Positions 12,218 to 19,723 of a DNA stretch of 64,000 nt are shown here, piece by piece. The position numbers were made by a program, and so were the translations under genes. The stretch comes from an uncultured Methylocystaceae bacterium (GTDB lineage Bacteria > Pseudomonadota > Alphaproteobacteria > Rhizobiales > Beijerinckiaceae), in the NCBI GenBank assembly GCA_937870755.1, contig CALMZV010000050.1:1-64000 (forward strand), written 5' to 3'. Under the pieces are notes generated by a model. It ran no database searches. It was not told the origin of the DNA and saw only the letters and a list, made by a program, of their open reading frames with translations. Every line of letters starts with the position of its first letter. Positions within the stretch are counted from its first letter, which is position 1.

Positions 12218-12466
12218 ATGGACCGCATTCGACAGATCATCGACAAACACGGCCGGCTGCCGGCGAAGGCGGAGACGCTCAGGCCGCAACAGGACCTCTA
12301 CGCCGCGGGCCTGACCTCGTTCGCCGCCGTGCAGCTGATGCTGGCTCTCGAAGAGGCGTTCGACATCGAGTTTCCGGAGCGCATGCTCAACCGCCGCAGC
12401 TTCTCGACGATCGAGCAGATCGCCGCGTGCATCAACGAACTCTCGCCGAAGGCGCTTGCATCGTGA
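12218..12466 (+). CDS. Acyl carrier protein-like (aminoacyl carrier) protein
   Basis: An 82-residue carrier protein. The phosphopantetheine site is in DLYAAGLTSFAAVQLMLALE; the Ser is preceded by Thr instead of the usual Asp of DSL. The helix after it and FPERMLNRRSFSTIEQI match the carrier fold. By analogy with Bradyrhizobium, where small carriers are loaded by a stand-alone amino acid ligase, this is probably the acceptor of the ligase encoded two genes downstream. The ATG at 12218 has ggag 6 bases upstream; in-frame GTG/ATG at 12203/12206 are alternatives. Its TGA overlaps the GTG of the next gene. Confidence 0.88.
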   Translation: MDRIRQIIDKHGRLPAKAETLRPQQDLYAAGLTSFAAVQLMLALEEAFDIEFPERMLNRRSFSTIEQIAACINELSPKALAS

Positions 12467-13623
12467 CCAGCCTCCAGGATCGTGCGGCGCTCGTCGCCGC
12501 TGTCGCCGCCCAATACACAGAGCAGGTGGACCGCGACGGTCGCTTCCCGACCGAAGCGCTGCGCGCCATGAAGGAACACCGCCTTCTGTCCGCCTTCATC
12601 CCGAAGGAATTCGGCGGCGAAGGCGCCGCCCTGGCCGACATCGCGGATGTCGTGTCGATTCTTTCGCAGAGCTGCGGCTCGACCGGCATGGTCTACGCCA
12701 TGCACCAGATCAAGACGTCGAGTCTCGTCACGCACGGCGGCGCGAGCGCCTGGCATCGCGCCTTCATGGAGCGCATTTGCGACGAACAGTTGCTGCTCGG
12801 CTCCGCGACGACGGAAGGCGGCGGCATCGGCGGCAACCTGCGCAACTCCATCTGCGCCGTCGAACGCAAGGGCGAGCGTTTCTCGCTCGAGAAGGTCGGC
12901 GCGCTCATCTCCTACGGCATCCAGTCGGACGCCATTCTCATCACCGCGCGCTCGGGGCCGGATGCGCCGCCCTCCGACCAGGTGATGGCCGTCTTCACCA
13001 AGGACCAGTATACGCTCGAACAGACGATGAAGTGGGACGCGCTGGGCATGCGCGGCACCTGTTCCGACGGGTTCACCTTCCGCGGCGAAGGCGACGCGGC
13101 GCAGATCTTTCCGAACGATTTCGGCGATATCGCCGCCAAATCCATGCTGCCGATCTGCCACATATTGTGGAGCGCGGTCTGGTATGGCGTGGCCTACGCC
13201 GCGTTTGCGCGCGCGCAGAATTTCGTGCGCGCCGAAGCCCGCCGCACGCCAAACGTCGTTCCGCCCGGCGCCCTGCGCGTGGCGGAGGCGGCCAACATGC
13301 TGCAATTGATGAAATCCAACACGACCGCCGCCATTCACCGGTTCGAAAAGGCCGAACAGGGCGGCGAGGATCTCGGCTCGGTCGGCTTCATCGTGGCGAT
13401 GAACAACGTGAAGATCGGCGCATCGCGCATGGCGTGCGACGTCATCAACCACGCGATGCTGATCACCGGCATCAACGGCTATCGCAACGACACGCCCTAC
13501 AGCGTCGGCCGTCACATGCGCGACGCCATGTCCGCGCCGATCATGATTTCGAACGACCGCATATTCGGCAACATGTCGAACCTGCTGCTGATGCACCGCA
13601 TCGAACCCTCGCTGGTGGCCTGA
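12463..13623 (+). CDS. Acyl-CoA dehydrogenase family flavoprotein
   Basis: A 386-residue acyl-CoA dehydrogenase homologue, expected to bind FAD. The N-terminal helical domain (FPTEALRAMKEHRLLSAFIP, FGGEG), the middle beta domain (LLGSATTEGGGIGGNLR, then MKWDALGMRGTCSDG) and the C-terminal helical domain are in order. Where typical members have EGT with the catalytic Glu, this one reads ISNDRIFGNMSN, so the usual alpha-proton base seems absent or moved. It begins with GTG overlapping the carrier-protein stop by 4 bases, which points to tight co-expression and to a substrate carried on that protein. Which bond it oxidises is unknown; dehydrogenation of a carrier-bound aminoacyl group is inference. 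Confidence 0.85.
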   Translation: MTSLQDRAALVAAVAAQYTEQVDRDGRFPTEALRAMKEHRLLSAFIPKEFGGEGAALADIADVVSILSQSCGSTGMVYAMHQIKTSSLVTHGGASAWHRAFMERICDEQLLLGSATTEGGGIGGNLRNSICAVERKGERFSLEKVGALISYGIQSDAILITARSGPDAPPSDQVMAVFTKDQYTLEQTMKWDALGMRGTCSDGFTFRGEGDAAQIFPNDFGDIAAKSMLPICHILWSAVWYGVAYAAFARAQNFVRAEARRTPNVVPPGALRVAEAANMLQLMKSNTTAAIHRFEKAEQGGEDLGSVGFIVAMNNVKIGASRMACDVINHAMLITGINGYRNDTPYSVGRHMRDAMSAPIMISNDRIFGNMSNLLLMHRIEPSLVA

Positions 13624-13624
13624 C

Positions 13625-14536
13625 ATGTGCGAAGCCTGCCCGACGCTGCTCGACAAGCTCATCCGCGCCGGTCTGCTGATTGAAACCGGCGTCGACGGCC
13701 TCTACGGACGCTCCGGCGAATTCGAGCGGATCGTCGACGGGTTCGACCGGCTCGTCAGCCGCCTCGGCCAGGGAGACGGCGCGGAAGTGGTGCGCTTTCC
13801 GCCGGGCATGAATCGCGCGCTGTTCGAAAAGAGCGGCTATCTGAAAAGCTTTCCCCAGCTTGCCGGCACGGTCCATGCGTTTTCGGGCGACGACCGGCGC
13901 CACGCCGCGCTCGTCGCGCATCTGGAGGCGGGAGAGGACTGGTCGGGCGATCAGAAGATGACCGACGTCGTCCTCACCCCGGCCGCCTGCTATCCCCTCT
14001 ATCCGACAGTCGCGCGGCGCGGGCCTTTGCCCGCCGACGGGCTGGTGTTCGATCTCAACTCGTATTGCTTCCGCCACGAACCATCCAGGGAACCGACGCG
14101 AATGCAGATGTTCCGCATGCGCGAATATGTGCGCATCGGCGCGCCCGACCAGGTCGTCGCATTCCGCGCGATGTGGCTGGAGCGCGGCAAGAAGATGATC
14201 GAAACCCTGCGCCTGCCCTGTCACGTCGATCTCGCCAACGATCCGTTCTTCGGCCGCGCGGGGCGCGTGATGGCTTCGAGCCAGCGCGATCTGGGTCTGA
14301 AATTCGAACTGCTCGTGCCGGTCAACAGCGACGAAAACCCCACCGCCTGCCTCAGCTTCAACTATCATCAGGAACATTTCGGCGCGCTGTGGGGCATTCG
14401 CACCGCGTCCGGCGAAACCGCGCATACGGCCTGCGTGGGCTTCGGCATGGAGCGCGTGACGATCGCGCTGCTGAAACACCATGGCCTCGACATCGCGGCC
14501 TGGCCGCGCGAGGTGCGCGATGCCCTCGCCCTCTAG
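13625..14536 (+). CDS. Amino acid:[carrier protein] ligase (class II synthetase-like)
   Basis: A 303-residue protein related to the catalytic core of atypical seryl-tRNA synthetases but lacking a tRNA-binding arm. Members activate a small amino acid (Gly or Ala in Bradyrhizobium) with ATP and transfer it to the phosphopantetheine thiol of a carrier protein. Motif 2 is seen in SYCFRHEPSREPTRMQMFRMREY and motif 3 in GFGMERVTIALL. The zinc ligands appear as Cys122 (AACYPLYP), Glu167 (FRMREYVR) and Cys270 (HTACVGF); their spacing equals that I recall for the Bradyrhizobium enzyme (131/176/279). The start is one base after the dehydrogenase stop. The carrier protein is encoded upstream in the same operon. 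Confidence 0.92.
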   Translation: MCEACPTLLDKLIRAGLLIETGVDGLYGRSGEFERIVDGFDRLVSRLGQGDGAEVVRFPPGMNRALFEKSGYLKSFPQLAGTVHAFSGDDRRHAALVAHLEAGEDWSGDQKMTDVVLTPAACYPLYPTVARRGPLPADGLVFDLNSYCFRHEPSREPTRMQMFRMREYVRIGAPDQVVAFRAMWLERGKKMIETLRLPCHVDLANDPFFGRAGRVMASSQRDLGLKFELLVPVNSDENPTACLSFNYHQEHFGALWGIRTASGETAHTACVGFGMERVTIALLKHHGLDIAAWPREVRDALAL

Positions 14537-15509
14537 CGCCTTCGCGCCCGGGATCGATCCGGCGACCTACGTGACGCATGCGTTGCACGACGCCGCACGC
14601 GACTGGCCGCAGACCAATTGCTACGCCGATCTGTGGATCGAAGCCGTGGCCGCGCGCGGCGGCGACCCGCGCGCGATGTTCGGCTTTACCGCGGCGCTCG
14701 ATTTCGAAGGCGACCAGTTCACATTCTTCAAACCGTCGCTCGACGAAATCGAGACGCTCTACGGTCTCGGCGTGTTCGAACTGTCGGTCTACGACAATTT
14801 GCCGGCGCACATCGCCGCGCAATGCGCGCGCGGGCGCCTCGTCATGGTGGAGGTGGACGCGTTCCATCTCCCCGACACGCGCGGCGTCTCCTATCGGATC
14901 GAACATTCCAAGACGACGATCGGCGTCAACGCGTTCGATCCCGCCGCCCGGCGCGCGGACTTCTTTCACAACGAGGGTTATTTCCGCGCGGACGGGGAGG
15001 ATTTCGTCCGCCTGTTCCGACTTGCGCCGGAGCCCGAAGAGGCGCTCCCGCCCTATGCGGAAATCGTCAAGCCGCTCGGCGCGGCCCTCGCGCCGGATGC
15101 GGCGCGCGACGCCGCGCGCGCGATGCTGCAACGGCATCTGGCGCGCCGGCCAGCGCGCAACCCGATCCTTGCGTTCGCGGATGCGGCGCCGTCGCTGATC
15201 GAAGCGGCGCGCGCGCGCGATCCCGGTTTCTTTCACAAGCTGGCGTTCAACACGCTTCGCCAGCTGGGCGCGAATTTCGAACTGCTGGCCGACCATCTCG
15301 TCTGGCTCGACGCCGCGCCATTCGCGCAGGCGAGCGAACTCTCGCGGTCCGTTTCGGCCGGCGCCAAGGCGCAGCAGTTCGTGCTCGCACGCGCGATGAT
15401 GCGCAACAAGCCTTTCGACGACAGCGCGCTGCGCGAGCTGGCCCGGATCTACGACGATCTGTTCGACGCTCTCGCCGGCGCACGCGCGTGGCGCCTGCGC
15501 GCGTCCTGA
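14520..15509 (+). CDS. DUF1839 family protein
   Basis: A 329-residue protein of DUF1839, a family that I associate with amino acid:[carrier protein] ligases. Its first 17 bases overlap the ligase gene. The N-terminal half has Cys34 in QTNCYADLW, Asp113/His116 in VEVDAFHLPD and His129 in YRIEHSKTTIGVNAFD, an order that recalls papain-like acyltransferases such as the BtrH N-terminal domain, which move an acyl chain from a carrier protein to an amine. The C-terminal half (from about 190) is helical. A role as the transferase that unloads the aminoacyl carrier is inference; no biochemical function is known to me. Confidence 0.85.
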   Translation: MPSPSSAFAPGIDPATYVTHALHDAARDWPQTNCYADLWIEAVAARGGDPRAMFGFTAALDFEGDQFTFFKPSLDEIETLYGLGVFELSVYDNLPAHIAAQCARGRLVMVEVDAFHLPDTRGVSYRIEHSKTTIGVNAFDPAARRADFFHNEGYFRADGEDFVRLFRLAPEPEEALPPYAEIVKPLGAALAPDAARDAARAMLQRHLARRPARNPILAFADAAPSLIEAARARDPGFFHKLAFNTLRQLGANFELLADHLVWLDAAPFAQASELSRSVSAGAKAQQFVLARAMMRNKPFDDSALRELARIYDDLFDALAGARAWRLRAS

Positions 15510-15511
15510 CC

Positions 15512-17932
15512 ATGGCGGGCGCCGACATCGTTCCGGAAAACTGGGCGTTTGCGCTCTGCGACGCCGACAGCGCCGCCGACCCGGCCGGCGCCGCGCGTCT
15601 CGCCTTTCGCCCCGCGCCTGTTCCCGGCACGGTCGCGCAGGCGCTCATCGCTTGCGGCGACTGGAATCCGGATGCGCCGCCGCCGCTCGATGCGATGGAC
15701 GTCTGGTATCGCGCGCCCGTTTCCGGCGACGGCCCGTTTCGCCTCGTATGCGATGGGCTCGCGACATTCGCCGACATATTTCTCGACAATGCGCTCGTCG
15801 GAGGAACGCAGTCGATGTTCACGCCGGCGCATTTCGACATTGCGCTTGGCGGCGACCATACGCTGTGGTTCCGGTTTCGCGCGCTGTCCACCGCGGTGGC
15901 GGACCAGAAAGGCCGTGCGCGCTGGCGTCCGCGCATGATCCAGCCAGGCGCGCTGCGCTTCGCGCGCACGAGCGCGCTGGGACATATGCCGGGTTTCGCC
16001 CCGCCCGCGCCGCCGGTCGGCCCGTGGCGCGGCGTGCGCCTCCTCCATCGCGCACGTCCGCGCATGATCGAACGCAGCGTGCGCGCGCGGCTCGACGGCG
16101 CCGACGGCGCGCTGGACATTCAGCTGGTTTTCGATCGCGCGCCCGACCATGCGCCGCGCGCCGCATGCGAGGGCGCCAGCATTCTCCTGCATGCGGAAAC
16201 GCCGACGCGCTACTTCGGCCGCCTGACCATTCCGAACGTCGAGCCCTGGTTTCCGCATACGCACGGCGCGCCGCGGCTCTACGATGTGATCGTGCACGAC
16301 GCAGACGCGCGCGAAACCATTCGCACGGGATTTCGCACGATCGACGTCGCCGACGACGAGCGGTTCGCGCTGGCGATCAACGGCGTTCCTGTGTTCTGCC
16401 GGGGCGCGGTGTGGACGCCGCTCGACGTCATCTCGCTCCAGAACGAACCGAGCGCGCTGGCCGGGCAGATCGCGCTCGCGCGGGCGGCGGGCGTCAACAT
16501 GTTCCGTGTCGCCGGGCCGTTCGTCTACGAGGACGAGGATTTTCATCGCGCCTGCGACGAGGCCGGCATTCTTGTCTGGCAGGATTTCATGTTCGCCAAT
16601 TTCGACTATCCGGCGACGGACGAAACGTTCGTCGCGCTGGTCGAACAGGAGGCGCATGCGTTCCTGCGGCGCACGGCATTCTCGCCTTCTCTGGCGGTTG
16701 TGTGCGGCGGCAGCGAAGTCTATCAGCAGGCCGCGATGTTCGGCCTCGCGCCGGACACATGGCGATCCGCGCTGTTCGAGGACATTCTGCCGCGCGCGGT
16801 CCGACGCCTGCGCGAGGACGTCGCCTATGTCGTCAATTCGCCTTCCGGCGGCGCGCTGCCGTTCCATGCGGATACGGGCGTCGCGCACTACTATGGCGTC
16901 GGCGCCTATCGGCGACACCTCGACGACGCGCGGCGCGCCGATGTGCGTTTCGCGTCCGAATGCCTGGGCTTCGCCAACGTGCCTGAAACGCGCACGCTGC
17001 GCGAGGATTTCGGCGCCGCCCCGCTCGCCGCCCCACTGTGGCGCGCGCGCATTCCGCGCGATCAGGGCGCGATGCAGGATTTCGAGGACGTGCGCGATCA
17101 CTATGTCGGCCTTCTCTACGATGTGGATGCGCGCGCGCTGAAGAAGGACGATCCCGAGGCTTATCTCGATCTGTCGCGCGCGGCGGTCGCGGAAACGATC
17201 GAGGCGACTATCGCCGAATGGCGGCGCGCGGGATCGACCTGCGCCGGCGCGCTCGTCTGGTTCTGGAAAGACCTGTGGCCGTCGAGCGGCTGGGGCATGG
17301 TGGACTGGAGAGGCAGGCCGAAATCGGCCTGGCATGCGGCGCGGCGCGCGTTCCGCCCGGTGCAGGTCGCGCTGATCGACGAAGGCGTCAACGGGCTGCA
17401 CGTGCATTGCCTCAACGAGCGCGCGGCGCCGTTCGAGGGCGCAATCGCGCTTTGCTGCTACAAGGACGGCGCCACCGTAGTCATGCATGGCGAGCGCGCG
17501 ATTTCGATCGGCCCGCGCGCGCGGCTTGTCGTGAAGGATTGCGACGTGTGGGGTGCGTTCTTCGATACGCCTTACGCCTATCGCTTCGGCCCGCCGTCGC
17601 ACGAGGCGACGCATGTCGTGCTGCGCGATGCGGACGGCGCGCACGTCGCCGAAAGCTGGCATTTTCCGCTCGGCCGCAAGGCGGCGTCGTTTCAAGCGCA
17701 ATTGCAGGCGACGGCCTTCCGCGATGCGCAGGGGTGGGGCCTTCGGATCTCGACCGATGCGGTCGCGCAATCGGTCAAGATAGAAGACGCCTGCGCGACG
17801 CCGTTCGACAACTGGTTCCATCTTGCGCCGGGTCAACCGCGCGTCGTGCGCTTTCCCGACGCCGGCGAACCCATTGCGGGGAAGGTTGCGGCCCTCGGCC
17901 GCCCGCCTCTATCCTATCGCGGCGAAGAATGA
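15512..17932 (+). CDS. Glycoside hydrolase family 2 protein, beta-mannosidase-like
   Basis: An 806-residue protein with the GH2 plan: an N-terminal jelly-roll sugar-binding domain (VWYRAPVSG, FADIFLDNALVGGTQSMFTP), an immunoglobulin-like domain, a TIM barrel (LAINGVPVFCRGAVWTPLD, LARAAGVNMFRVAGPFVYED, ILVWQDFMFANFDYP) and C-terminal beta domains. Candidate acid/base Glu402 is in CGGSEVYQQ and nucleophile Glu483 in FASECLGF, so it is probably active. No signal peptide is seen, so it would act in the cytoplasm, unusual for polymer-degrading enzymes and more fitting for a small glycoside or glycosyl transfer. It starts 2 bases after DUF1839 and precedes the thioesterase by 9 bases. Confidence 0.85.
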   Translation: MAGADIVPENWAFALCDADSAADPAGAARLAFRPAPVPGTVAQALIACGDWNPDAPPPLDAMDVWYRAPVSGDGPFRLVCDGLATFADIFLDNALVGGTQSMFTPAHFDIALGGDHTLWFRFRALSTAVADQKGRARWRPRMIQPGALRFARTSALGHMPGFAPPAPPVGPWRGVRLLHRARPRMIERSVRARLDGADGALDIQLVFDRAPDHAPRAACEGASILLHAETPTRYFGRLTIPNVEPWFPHTHGAPRLYDVIVHDADARETIRTGFRTIDVADDERFALAINGVPVFCRGAVWTPLDVISLQNEPSALAGQIALARAAGVNMFRVAGPFVYEDEDFHRACDEAGILVWQDFMFANFDYPATDETFVALVEQEAHAFLRRTAFSPSLAVVCGGSEVYQQAAMFGLAPDTWRSALFEDILPRAVRRLREDVAYVVNSPSGGALPFHADTGVAHYYGVGAYRRHLDDARRADVRFASECLGFANVPETRTLREDFGAAPLAAPLWRARIPRDQGAMQDFEDVRDHYVGLLYDVDARALKKDDPEAYLDLSRAAVAETIEATIAEWRRAGSTCAGALVWFWKDLWPSSGWGMVDWRGRPKSAWHAARRAFRPVQVALIDEGVNGLHVHCLNERAAPFEGAIALCCYKDGATVVMHGERAISIGPRARLVVKDCDVWGAFFDTPYAYRFGPPSHEATHVVLRDADGAHVAESWHFPLGRKAASFQAQLQATAFRDAQGWGLRISTDAVAQSVKIEDACATPFDNWFHLAPGQPRVVRFPDAGEPIAGKVAALGRPPLSYRGEE

Positions 17933-17941
17933 GGACGCCCG

Positions 17942-18433
17942 ATGGGAACGCCCGTGCTGCCGAACCCGCTCAACACGATGCCGGTGCAGAAAGACTGGAT
18001 CGACTACAACGGCCATATGAACGACGCCTATTACGCGCTCGTCTTCAGCCGCAGTCTCGACAGGATGATGGAGGCGCTCGGCCTCGATACGCACGACCGC
18101 ACGCGCGATTCGCTGACCATCTACACGCTCACGCTCACCGTCCACTATCTGCGCGAGGCGCACGAGGGCGAGACGTTGTTCGTGGAAGGGCGCGTGCTCG
18201 ATCACGACGAGAAGCGCGTGCGCGTGTGGATGTCGATGCGGCGTGAGAACGGCGAGGAATGCGCGCAGAGCGAACAGGTTCTGCTGTGCGTGGATCAATC
18301 CGGCGACAAGCCGCGCGGCGCGCCATTTCCGCCGGCCGTGCTGGCGCGGTTGCGGGAAGCCCATCGCGCGCAGCAGCACGAGCCGACGCCGGCCGCCGCC
18401 GGGCGCGGCATCAGCCTGCAGAAACGTTCGTAA
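17942..18433 (+). CDS. Hotdog acyl-CoA thioesterase family protein
   Basis: A 163-residue hotdog protein of the 4-hydroxybenzoyl-CoA thioesterase type, with the motif WIDYNGHMNDAYYALVFS (Asp and the NGHMN turn) and the strand LTLTVHYLREAHEGETL. The closest family I recognise is the thioesterase found alone or fused to carnitine dehydrogenase, which cleaves betainyl-CoA. Nine bases after the GH2 gene, it is probably the last gene of the carrier-protein operon and might release a product from a thioester or proofread the carrier. Its last 23 bases overlap the end of the converging glycosyltransferase gene. Confidence 0.85.
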   Translation: MGTPVLPNPLNTMPVQKDWIDYNGHMNDAYYALVFSRSLDRMMEALGLDTHDRTRDSLTIYTLTLTVHYLREAHEGETLFVEGRVLDHDEKRVRVWMSMRRENGEECAQSEQVLLCVDQSGDKPRGAPFPPAVLARLREAHRAQQHEPTPAAAGRGISLQKRS

Positions 18434-19038
18434 GCAGGCCGGACCGCTCCAGCCGGTCGACGTCCTGCGGGCGGTCGACATCCCAGACCGTCGCCGGCTC
18501 CGCCAGCGCAAGACCGAGGGCGCGCGCGCGCGCGGGTTTGCGCCATCACATCTGCGCCTCCCCATTGCAGGGGCGCGAACAGCGCAGGGTGCGGCGCGTT
18601 CAGCCCGACGAGGCCGTAGCCGCCATCCTCCGCCGGCAGAAACACGGCGTCCGCGTGCTGCAGCGCCTGCGCGCAACGCAGCAGCAAGGCGGCGTCGACG
18701 ATCGGGCAGTCGGTTCCCACCAGCAGCGTCGGCGCCTGCATGGCCGCGAACGCATGCGCCATCCGCGCGCCGATGTCGCCTGCGCATTGGGCGGCGCACG
18801 CCACGCCGAAATCGCGCGCGGCCTCCTCGAAGAACGGATGATCGCAATCGGGCGAGCACCAGAGCGTGACGGTAAGGCCGCTCGCGCGCGCCTGCGTGAG
18901 CGTATGACGCACGAGGCGCGCGTGCAGGCGCGCGGCCCCGTCCGCACCGAGACGGGGCGCCAGCCGCGTCTTGGCCTCGCCCGCGACCGGCGCGCGCGCC
19001 AGCACGGCGATCTCAGTCGGTCTGCGGTCTGTAGCCAT
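18411..19038 (-). pseudogene. TIGR04282-type small glycosyltransferase, frameshifted at a CG repeat
   Basis: A gene for an about 210-residue nucleotide-diphospho-sugar transferase-like protein (VLARAPVAGEAKTRLAPRLG, LLVGTDCPIVDAALL, FLPAEDGGYGLVGL). The frame breaks at (CG)7, 18521-18534: before it the protein reads MAQTRARAR, and only a 2-base shift restores the family C-terminus (LGLALAEPATVWDVDRPQDV) ending at the TGA at 18411. Eight CG units would keep the frame. Unrepaired, translation continues to 18295, through the antisense of the thioesterase, giving an unrelated tail. It may be a sequencing slip, a recent mutation or a phase-variable site. ATG at 19038 is preferred; it overlaps the TIGR04283 gene by 26 bases. 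The family name mentions arsenosugars, but the true product is unknown. Confidence 0.75.
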
Positions 19039-19723
19039 AGCGTCGCGCAAGGTCGTTGGGATCGGCGCCGAAGAAATACGAAAGCCGCAGGCGCCACATC
19101 AACATGATCGTGCGCAGCGCGCCGTTGTCGTCCCAGCGCCGTCCGGACGTTCGCGCGCGCGCGGAAAGGCAGAGCGGCGCGGCATGTCGCTTCAGGCGCC
19201 TCGACAGCGCGACGTCCTCCATCAGCGCGATGTCGGGAAAGCCGCCAACGTCTTCGAAGACATCGCGGCGCACAAAGATCGCCTGATCGCCGGTGGCGAC
19301 GCCCGTGAGGCGCGAGCGCGCGTTCATGAGCGCGGCGACGAGCGGCAGCAGCCGGCTGCGGCCGACGATCACGATATCGAACCGCCCCCAGACGGCGCCC
19401 GCGCGCACGCCTTCGCGCACGAGCGCCAATGCATCGCCCGGCAGGCGCGTGTCGACATGGAGAAAGAGCAACGTTTCGCCCCGCGCCGCGCGCGCCCCGG
19501 CGTTCATCTGGCGCGCCCTGCCTCGCGCGGCGACGATCATCCGGTCGGCGAACGGCGCGGCGCGAGCGGCGCTGTCGTCCGCGCTTGCGCCGTCGACCAC
19601 TATGATTTCGGCGCCGGCCGCACGCAGCGGCGCGAGCGCCGCGAGATTTTCGGCGATGGTCGTCGCCTCGTTCAGCACGGGCACGACGATCGACACGCAG
19701 GGTCGCCGTTCGCAGGAGATCAA
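19013..19723 (-). CDS. TIGR04283-type family 2 glycosyltransferase
   Basis: A 236-residue GT2 glycosyltransferase with the GT-A core: VSIVVPVLNEATTIAENL, IIVVDGASADDS, the DXD-like HVDTRLP, GDQAIFVRRDVFEDVGGFP and LMEDVALSRRLKR. The C-terminal hydrophobic stretch MLMWRLRLSYFFGADPNDLARRYG may touch the membrane. It forms a pair with the TIGR04282-type gene, an arrangement common in bacteria and linked by name only to arsenosugar or other glycolipid synthesis. The start at 19723 is TTG; an internal GTG at 19696 (VSIVVPV) is an alternative. Since its partner is broken here, the pair may not work as a unit. Confidence 0.85.
   Translation of the reverse strand: MISCERRPCVSIVVPVLNEATTIAENLAALAPLRAAGAEIIVVDGASADDSAARAAPFADRMIVAARGRARQMNAGARAARGETLLFLHVDTRLPGDALALVREGVRAGAVWGRFDIVIVGRSRLLPLVAALMNARSRLTGVATGDQAIFVRRDVFEDVGGFPDIALMEDVALSRRLKRHAAPLCLSARARTSGRRWDDNGALRTIMLMWRLRLSYFFGADPNDLARRYGYRPQTD

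Follow-up and report, generated by a model that had tools for sequence, protein, structure and literature searches.

Why bacteria charge carrier proteins with amino acids by means of a relative of the aminoacyl-tRNA synthetases (aaRS) has been a question since 2010. ATP-dependent amino acid loading of the carrier has been shown for homologues of the ligase considered here (PNAS 2010, as described in PMC2922099 and PMC9437257), and according to a 2022 review the purpose of carrier aminoacylation is still not known (PMC9437257). An initial annotation of the present DNA took the end product of such clusters to be not yet established. A note in proof from 2010 gives further information. It reports linkage of the ligase gene with genes for a carrier protein, an oxidoreductase and a glycosidase, with the conserved, uncharacterised open reading frame Atu2574 and with liposaccharide genes; Atu2574 is predicted to make an amide between the amino acid and the amino group of a cell-surface sugar, and the aminoacyl group is predicted to be modified beforehand, probably by monooxygenation (PMC2922099). 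The Atu2573/Atu2574 operons of Agrobacterium, as outlined in that text, share with the locus described below the ligase, carrier, oxidoreductase, conserved open reading frame and glycosidase as well as the predicted chemistry. The initial annotation presented the pathway as undescribed, but the note in proof already lists these genes and makes almost the same prediction (PMC2922099). Thus the linkage and the outline were already predicted in 2010, and the present operon is one member of a cluster family noted in print. The note in proof offers no fold for the conserved open reading frame and no co-occurrence test, and its passage on these genes does not mention a tandem hydrolase (PMC2922099). 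No functional study of Atu2573, Atu2574, Bll0957 or DUF1839 was found in the literature searched. What is new here is a fold match for DUF1839, a tandem hydrolase partner, and a separation of this operon from the Bll0957 type of cluster.

A second related system is the lincosamide synthetase (celesticetin, lincomycin), where a free-standing cysteine-protease-like enzyme, CcbD or LmbD, joins an amino acid to an amino sugar by an amide. CcbD takes a carrier-tethered proline on its Cys and transfers it to the amine of the amino sugar with a Cys-His-Glu triad (PMC12945683). For the locus described here a carrier-bound amino acid is likewise proposed, and DUF1839 has a predicted full-length fold match to CcbD. 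The lincosamide synthetase differs in having a non-ribosomal peptide synthetase (NRPS) A-domain where this locus has an aaRS-like ligase, and its product is a small antibiotic.

The window, i.e. the whole stretch of 64,000 nucleotides that was analysed, from an uncultured Methylocystaceae bacterium, carries an operon of six genes. The carrier protein gene (12218..12466) is followed by genes for an acyl-CoA dehydrogenase (ACAD)-fold flavoprotein (12463..13623, start GTG 12463; Acyl-CoA_dh_N E = 3e-11), a class II aaRS-like amino acid:[carrier protein] ligase (13625..14536), a DUF1839 protein (14481..15509, start ATG 14481 or ATG 14520; PF08893 E = 2e-104), a GH2 protein of the beta-mannosidase type (15512..17932, ATG 15512; Glyco_hydro_2_N2 and Ig_mannosidase domains) and a hotdog thioesterase (17942..18433; 4HBT_2, PF13279, E = 9e-28). 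Carrier and ACAD genes overlap by 4 bases, the ligase and DUF1839 genes also overlap, and gaps of 1, 2 and 9 bases separate ACAD from ligase, DUF1839 from GH2 and GH2 from thioesterase, respectively. The six tightly joined plus-strand genes of the initial annotation were all recovered on the plus strand and HMM scans agree with each identity. The same scans showed no condensation or adenylation domains in the six proteins, which places the operon outside the NRPS systems. The host genome has a single ligase copy and a single DUF1839 copy.

The carrier protein scores 100.5 bits against NF005480 (cut-off 72; PP-binding E = 1.5e-9), and its phosphopantetheine site, read from the sequence, is Ser34 in GLTSF. 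The ligase scores 504.6 bits against NF005479/PRK07080, where the curated cut-off is 357. It is a 303 aa protein whose residues 16–303 align with positions 46–332 of the Bll0957 chain, a Bradyrhizobium ligase of known structure (E = 4e-100), and it consists of the catalytic core alone, with no tRNA-binding domain, the carrier gene being in the same operon. The zinc ligands Cys122, Glu167 and Cys270 are at the positions initially annotated; they line up with the Bll0957 ligands and show no variation among 31 ligases. By analogy, the ligase would load a small amino acid on the carrier phosphopantetheine with ATP.

The ACAD homologue has no Glu at the positions of MCAD Glu376 or IVD Glu254, according to a manually read alignment; an invariant Ile is found at the former and Cys, Ser, Ala and similar residues at the latter. 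Because the canonical catalytic Glu of both dehydrogenase classes is missing, the sequence favours a monooxygenase-like role. The fold comparison separates neither function, as the model matches dehydrogenases with Z of approximately 39–41 and monooxygenases equally well. One of its fold matches is ColB1, which dehydrogenates a carrier-tethered cysteine. The GH2 protein matches a beta-mannosidase structure with E = 1.6e-50. Its Glu402 and Glu483 (acid/base and nucleophile) align with the catalytic Glu residues of a Bacteroides beta-mannosidase and are invariant in 22 homologues. No signal peptide was seen by eye and GH2 therefore probably acts in the cytoplasm. The Ser that precedes the acid/base residue, a position occupied by Asn in beta-mannosidases, was examined as a possible sign of a 2-substituted sugar. 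It was dropped as proof because, although Ser is present in 21 of 22 sequences, the sister genome has Asn, and no paper supporting such a sign was found.

The ligase was found in 104 and DUF1839 in 69 of 397 genomes of an order sample. In all 69 DUF1839 genomes the DUF1839 gene lies directly 3′ of the ligase gene on the same strand, with a median gap between HMM matches of 42 bases and a maximum of 455. The linkage of ligase, DUF1839 and GH2 proposed in the initial annotation is thus essentially perfect across homologues where ligase and DUF1839 are concerned (69/69). A comparison of 60 ligase loci of up to 20 kb each gave three types. Type A, to which the window belongs, has the co-directional order carrier-ACAD-ligase-DUF1839-GH2 (36 loci including the window). 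Type B loci (18) combine ACAD and ligase with a divergently oriented carrier gene and have no DUF1839 or GH2, and in type C (6 loci counted) the ligases are distant and both ACAD and DUF1839 are absent. Ligase, DUF1839 and GH2 also occur together in 84 of 85 further loci, 80 of which come from named genomes (Rhizobium, Agrobacterium, Neorhizobium, Bosea, Methylosinus, Methylocystis, Rhodoblastus and others). The remaining locus holds a second, stand-alone DUF1839 copy and comes from a genome that does not belong to the order. A phylum sample outside the order added one family only, a distant proteobacterial one, which has the same five-gene unit in four genomes. Thus carrier protein, ACAD homologue, ligase, DUF1839 and GH2 form a rigidly conserved five-gene operon.

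The thioesterase is outside this conserved unit. The Atu2573/Atu2574 operons do not have it, and among the loci compared it is restricted to one clade, where the window, its sister genome and two other loci have it. It was initially annotated as a member of the operon's set; it is instead a clade-specific accessory, and may possibly be an editing enzyme.

One genus from outside the order has two genomes in which a second DUF1839 gene stands alone, with no ligase of its own (L192:12232-13197 and L195:91-1065). The L192 copy is situated near ManC, Wzc and the tandem hydrolase.

In the ligase tree, Bll0957 groups with the type B sequences (support 0.90), whereas the type A sequences fall in one group with weak support (0.44). 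From its grouping with type B, Bll0957 belongs to a sister cluster type. The Bradyrhizobium biochemistry cited in the initial annotation therefore concerns the same ligase family, but a cluster that has no DUF1839 or GH2. Bll0957 type clusters share with the window a carrier protein, an ACAD homologue and a ligase of the same families, and differ from it in the divergent carrier gene, in the absence of DUF1839, GH2 and the tandem hydrolase, and in their neighbours. These form a second conserved cluster around the Bll0957-clade ligase (loci L035, L037, L046, L058, L063-L066, L075, L087 and similar) and include, in varying sets, homoserine O-succinyltransferase (HTS), a Cys/Met PLP enzyme, a TPP enzyme, a class IV aminotransferase and AMP-forming ligases, as well as an SDR, an EutQ-like cupin and an alpha/beta hydrolase. 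Type B looks like a distinct small-molecule pathway, perhaps acting on a homoserine-derived amino acid. The ligase homologues of type C (loci L067, L077-L082) score approximately 160 bits or fewer, under the family cut-off. They adjoin an MBOAT acyltransferase and an 826 aa open reading frame with no Pfam match, at times with a carrier protein, and show no ACAD, DUF1839 or GH2.

DUF1839 was modelled with AlphaFold2 from 32 sequences (mean pLDDT 89). A Foldseek search with the model ranked AziU3 (top), CcbD and CtaG first, each with a probability of 1.00. VIA-align gave Z = 18.9 for CcbD (rmsd 3.7 over 288 residues, 11% identity), 18.2 for AziU3 and 17.8 for CtaG, and the next match, an unrelated protein, was at 7.1. 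The match to these three proteins is full length, spanning both the papain-like half and the helical half. Cys35 and His151 are invariant in the 32 sequences, and Cys35 is situated at a helix start in the model; the comparison with CcbD, AziU3 and CtaG was made at the level of the fold. A DUF1839 profile search of all PDB chains showed no match to CcbD, CtaG or AziU3 at E ≤ 10. Because the sequence search finds no link, common descent of DUF1839 and CcbD is not claimed, and the likeness is one of fold and context. According to a 2023 survey of papain-like enzymes, DUF1839 has the papain-like fold and a swapped C(T/S)H site, and a role in acyl-CoA-dependent glycan processing is offered there as a guess (PMC10318531). 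The active site would then depart from the usual triad order, a proposed difference from the Cys-His-Glu triad of CcbD that adds to the absence of detectable sequence similarity (PMC10318531). From the model, DUF1839 is predicted to be a carrier-dependent, amide-forming acyltransferase. A common fold alone gives no proof of a common reaction for DUF1839 and CcbD, and AziU3 is not, to our knowledge, a sugar acyltransferase.

Type A operons are found near genes for Wzx flippases, Wzz/Wzc, glycosyltransferases, GH5, an initiating sugar transferase (Bac_transf), ManC, Wzy-like proteins and export. In Methylocystis (L179) the gene order is Wzx-Wzz-membrane protein-tandem hydrolase-operon. Several families, and among them the window's genus, have operons that are not flanked by exopolysaccharide genes. 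General exopolysaccharide neighbours of any kind were rejected as a type A discriminator, being present at 26/36 type A loci and at 9/18 type B loci (Wzz, Wzx and GT4 in the latter). Because they discriminate weakly, the case for an exopolysaccharide rests on the tandem alpha/beta-hydrolase. This gene occurs within 20 kb at 23/36 type A loci and at none of the 18 type B or 6 type C loci (Fisher p = 3e-6 for A against B, relatedness of loci ignored). Genome-wide, a full-length copy is present in all 73 DUF1839 genomes (16/16 and 57/57), even when unlinked, and in none of 61 genomes that have no DUF1839 (0/38 and 0/23). Its presence thus tracks the operon perfectly in 134 genomes, which gives the operon a named partner gene. 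The window's own family shows the same contrast, and so do single genera (G240 against G064, G096, G123 and G189; G194, G211 and G330 against G031). By co-occurrence the tandem hydrolase is an obligate partner of the DUF1839 cassette. In the window's genome it is unlinked to the operon and found on another contig (C26:141640-143325), next to a Wzy-like membrane protein, Wzz, a WecG-type enzyme and two further glycosyltransferases. The Wzy-like protein, so called by eye as it has no Pfam match, is 56% identical to its L179 counterpart. The gene set initially annotated is correct for the five operon genes and lacked the obligate partner, which lay outside the window in an exopolysaccharide locus.

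The closest described relatives of the tandem protein are in the exopolysaccharide loci of the exosortase A (PEP-CTERM) systems, which also contain a carrier protein and an AMP-forming ligase. The two domains find their best matches in hydrolase 2 and hydrolase 1 of these loci. The tandem protein differs in that the two domains are fused and the scores are under the curated cut-offs (TIGR03100, hydrolase 1, 61–109 bits against 168; TIGR03101, hydrolase 2, 54–81 against 203). In an alignment of 103 sequences, Gly or Arg stands in place of the nucleophile of the first domain. The second domain has a GxCxG motif whose nucleophile is Cys in 102 of them, and conserved Asp and His residues come after it. 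Polyhydroxyalkanoate synthases have Cys at the same nucleophile position. The Cys nucleophile would suit acyl transfer over simple hydrolysis. In R. johnstonii 3841 a Wzx-type flippase and the tandem hydrolase are fused in one 1103 aa open reading frame (L183:14782-18093), which hints at a role of the hydrolase in the export or assembly of the polymer.

The reading preferred here, with a probability of roughly 0.55, is that the operon provides a carrier route for N-aminoacylation of an amino sugar of a Wzx/Wzy-type exopolysaccharide, the amino acid probably being oxidised first. The aaRS-like ligase would activate a small amino acid with ATP and load it on the carrier phosphopantetheine, and the ACAD-fold flavoprotein would oxidise the tethered aminoacyl group, by dehydrogenation or monooxygenation. 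The DUF1839 Cys would then accept the acyl group and pass it to the amine of the amino sugar, in the manner of CcbD during celesticetin formation, a step suggested by the fold, the invariant Cys and His and the context. Cytoplasmic GH2 may trim or remodel the glycan bearing the aminoacylated sugar, and the tandem hydrolase would act in the same exopolysaccharide assembly, probably transferring or removing acyl groups. The logic of the initial annotation, loading, oxidation, DUF1839 transfer and a role for GH2, fits everything found, while its novelty, its use of the Bll0957 type and the role given to the thioesterase needed correction. The acceptor and the nature of the oxidation are the weakest points, and an assembly pathway would not be expected to include a cytoplasmic glycosidase, which counts against the proposal.

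The evidence narrows the question raised in 2010 to one reaction, that of a CcbD-like DUF1839, and one acceptor class, an exopolysaccharide amino sugar. If true, an aaRS-derived enzyme feeds polymer modification and not peptide synthesis. The cassette is carried by Rhizobium, Agrobacterium, Methylosinus, Methylocystis and their relatives and may therefore help to shape the surface polymers that serve in attachment and symbiosis. The wider proposal, that cassette and tandem hydrolase together are a dedicated, widespread machine which adds an oxidised aminoacyl group to exopolysaccharide by way of an aaRS-derived enzyme, is put forward tentatively and at somewhat less than even odds; no description of such a decoration was found in the literature searched.

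The same chemistry could instead build a secreted, soluble aminoacylated amino-sugar metabolite, as in the lincosamides and butirosin. The nearest fold relatives of DUF1839 do work in antibiotic pathways, GH2 appears cytoplasmic by eye and the operon is away from polysaccharide genes in several genomes, but this product is unlikely given the strict co-occurrence with a tandem hydrolase sited among Wzx, Wzz and glycosyltransferase genes, its fusion to a Wzx-type flippase in R. johnstonii, and the lack of a recurrent exporter or resistance gene in the annotated type A flanks. An acceptor in lipopolysaccharide or another lipid-linked glycan, in place of exopolysaccharide, would agree with the liposaccharide genes which the 2010 note in proof places near the ligase (PMC2922099) and with an O-antigen-ligase-like Wzy_C protein at one locus. 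The genes around the operon are, however, of the capsule/exopolysaccharide type (Wzc, Poly_export, Bac_transf) and the tandem hydrolase is accompanied by Wzz, Wzx and glycosyltransferases, making such an acceptor quite improbable. That DUF1839 is a carrier-dependent hydrolase or an AziU3-like ring-forming enzyme, freeing an oxidised amino acid that could serve as a signal or nitrogen compound, with GH2 a co-regulated passenger, would accommodate the top Foldseek rank of AziU3, the unusual swapped active site (PMC10318531) and the added thioesterase of the window operon, but is very unlikely because CcbD and CtaG score as well as AziU3 and GH2, unlike a passenger, is inseparable from DUF1839 across families.

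Two observations concern the surroundings of these operons. Downstream of the window operon are two minus-strand open reading frames (window 18295-19723) that by eye resemble the paired transferase 1 and 2 families (TIGR04282/TIGR04283). Just upstream of the R. johnstonii operon (L183:5316-7384) are genes for EpmA (EF-P lysine aminoacylase) and a lysine-2,3-aminomutase-like protein, another aaRS-derived modification system situated side by side with the cassette.
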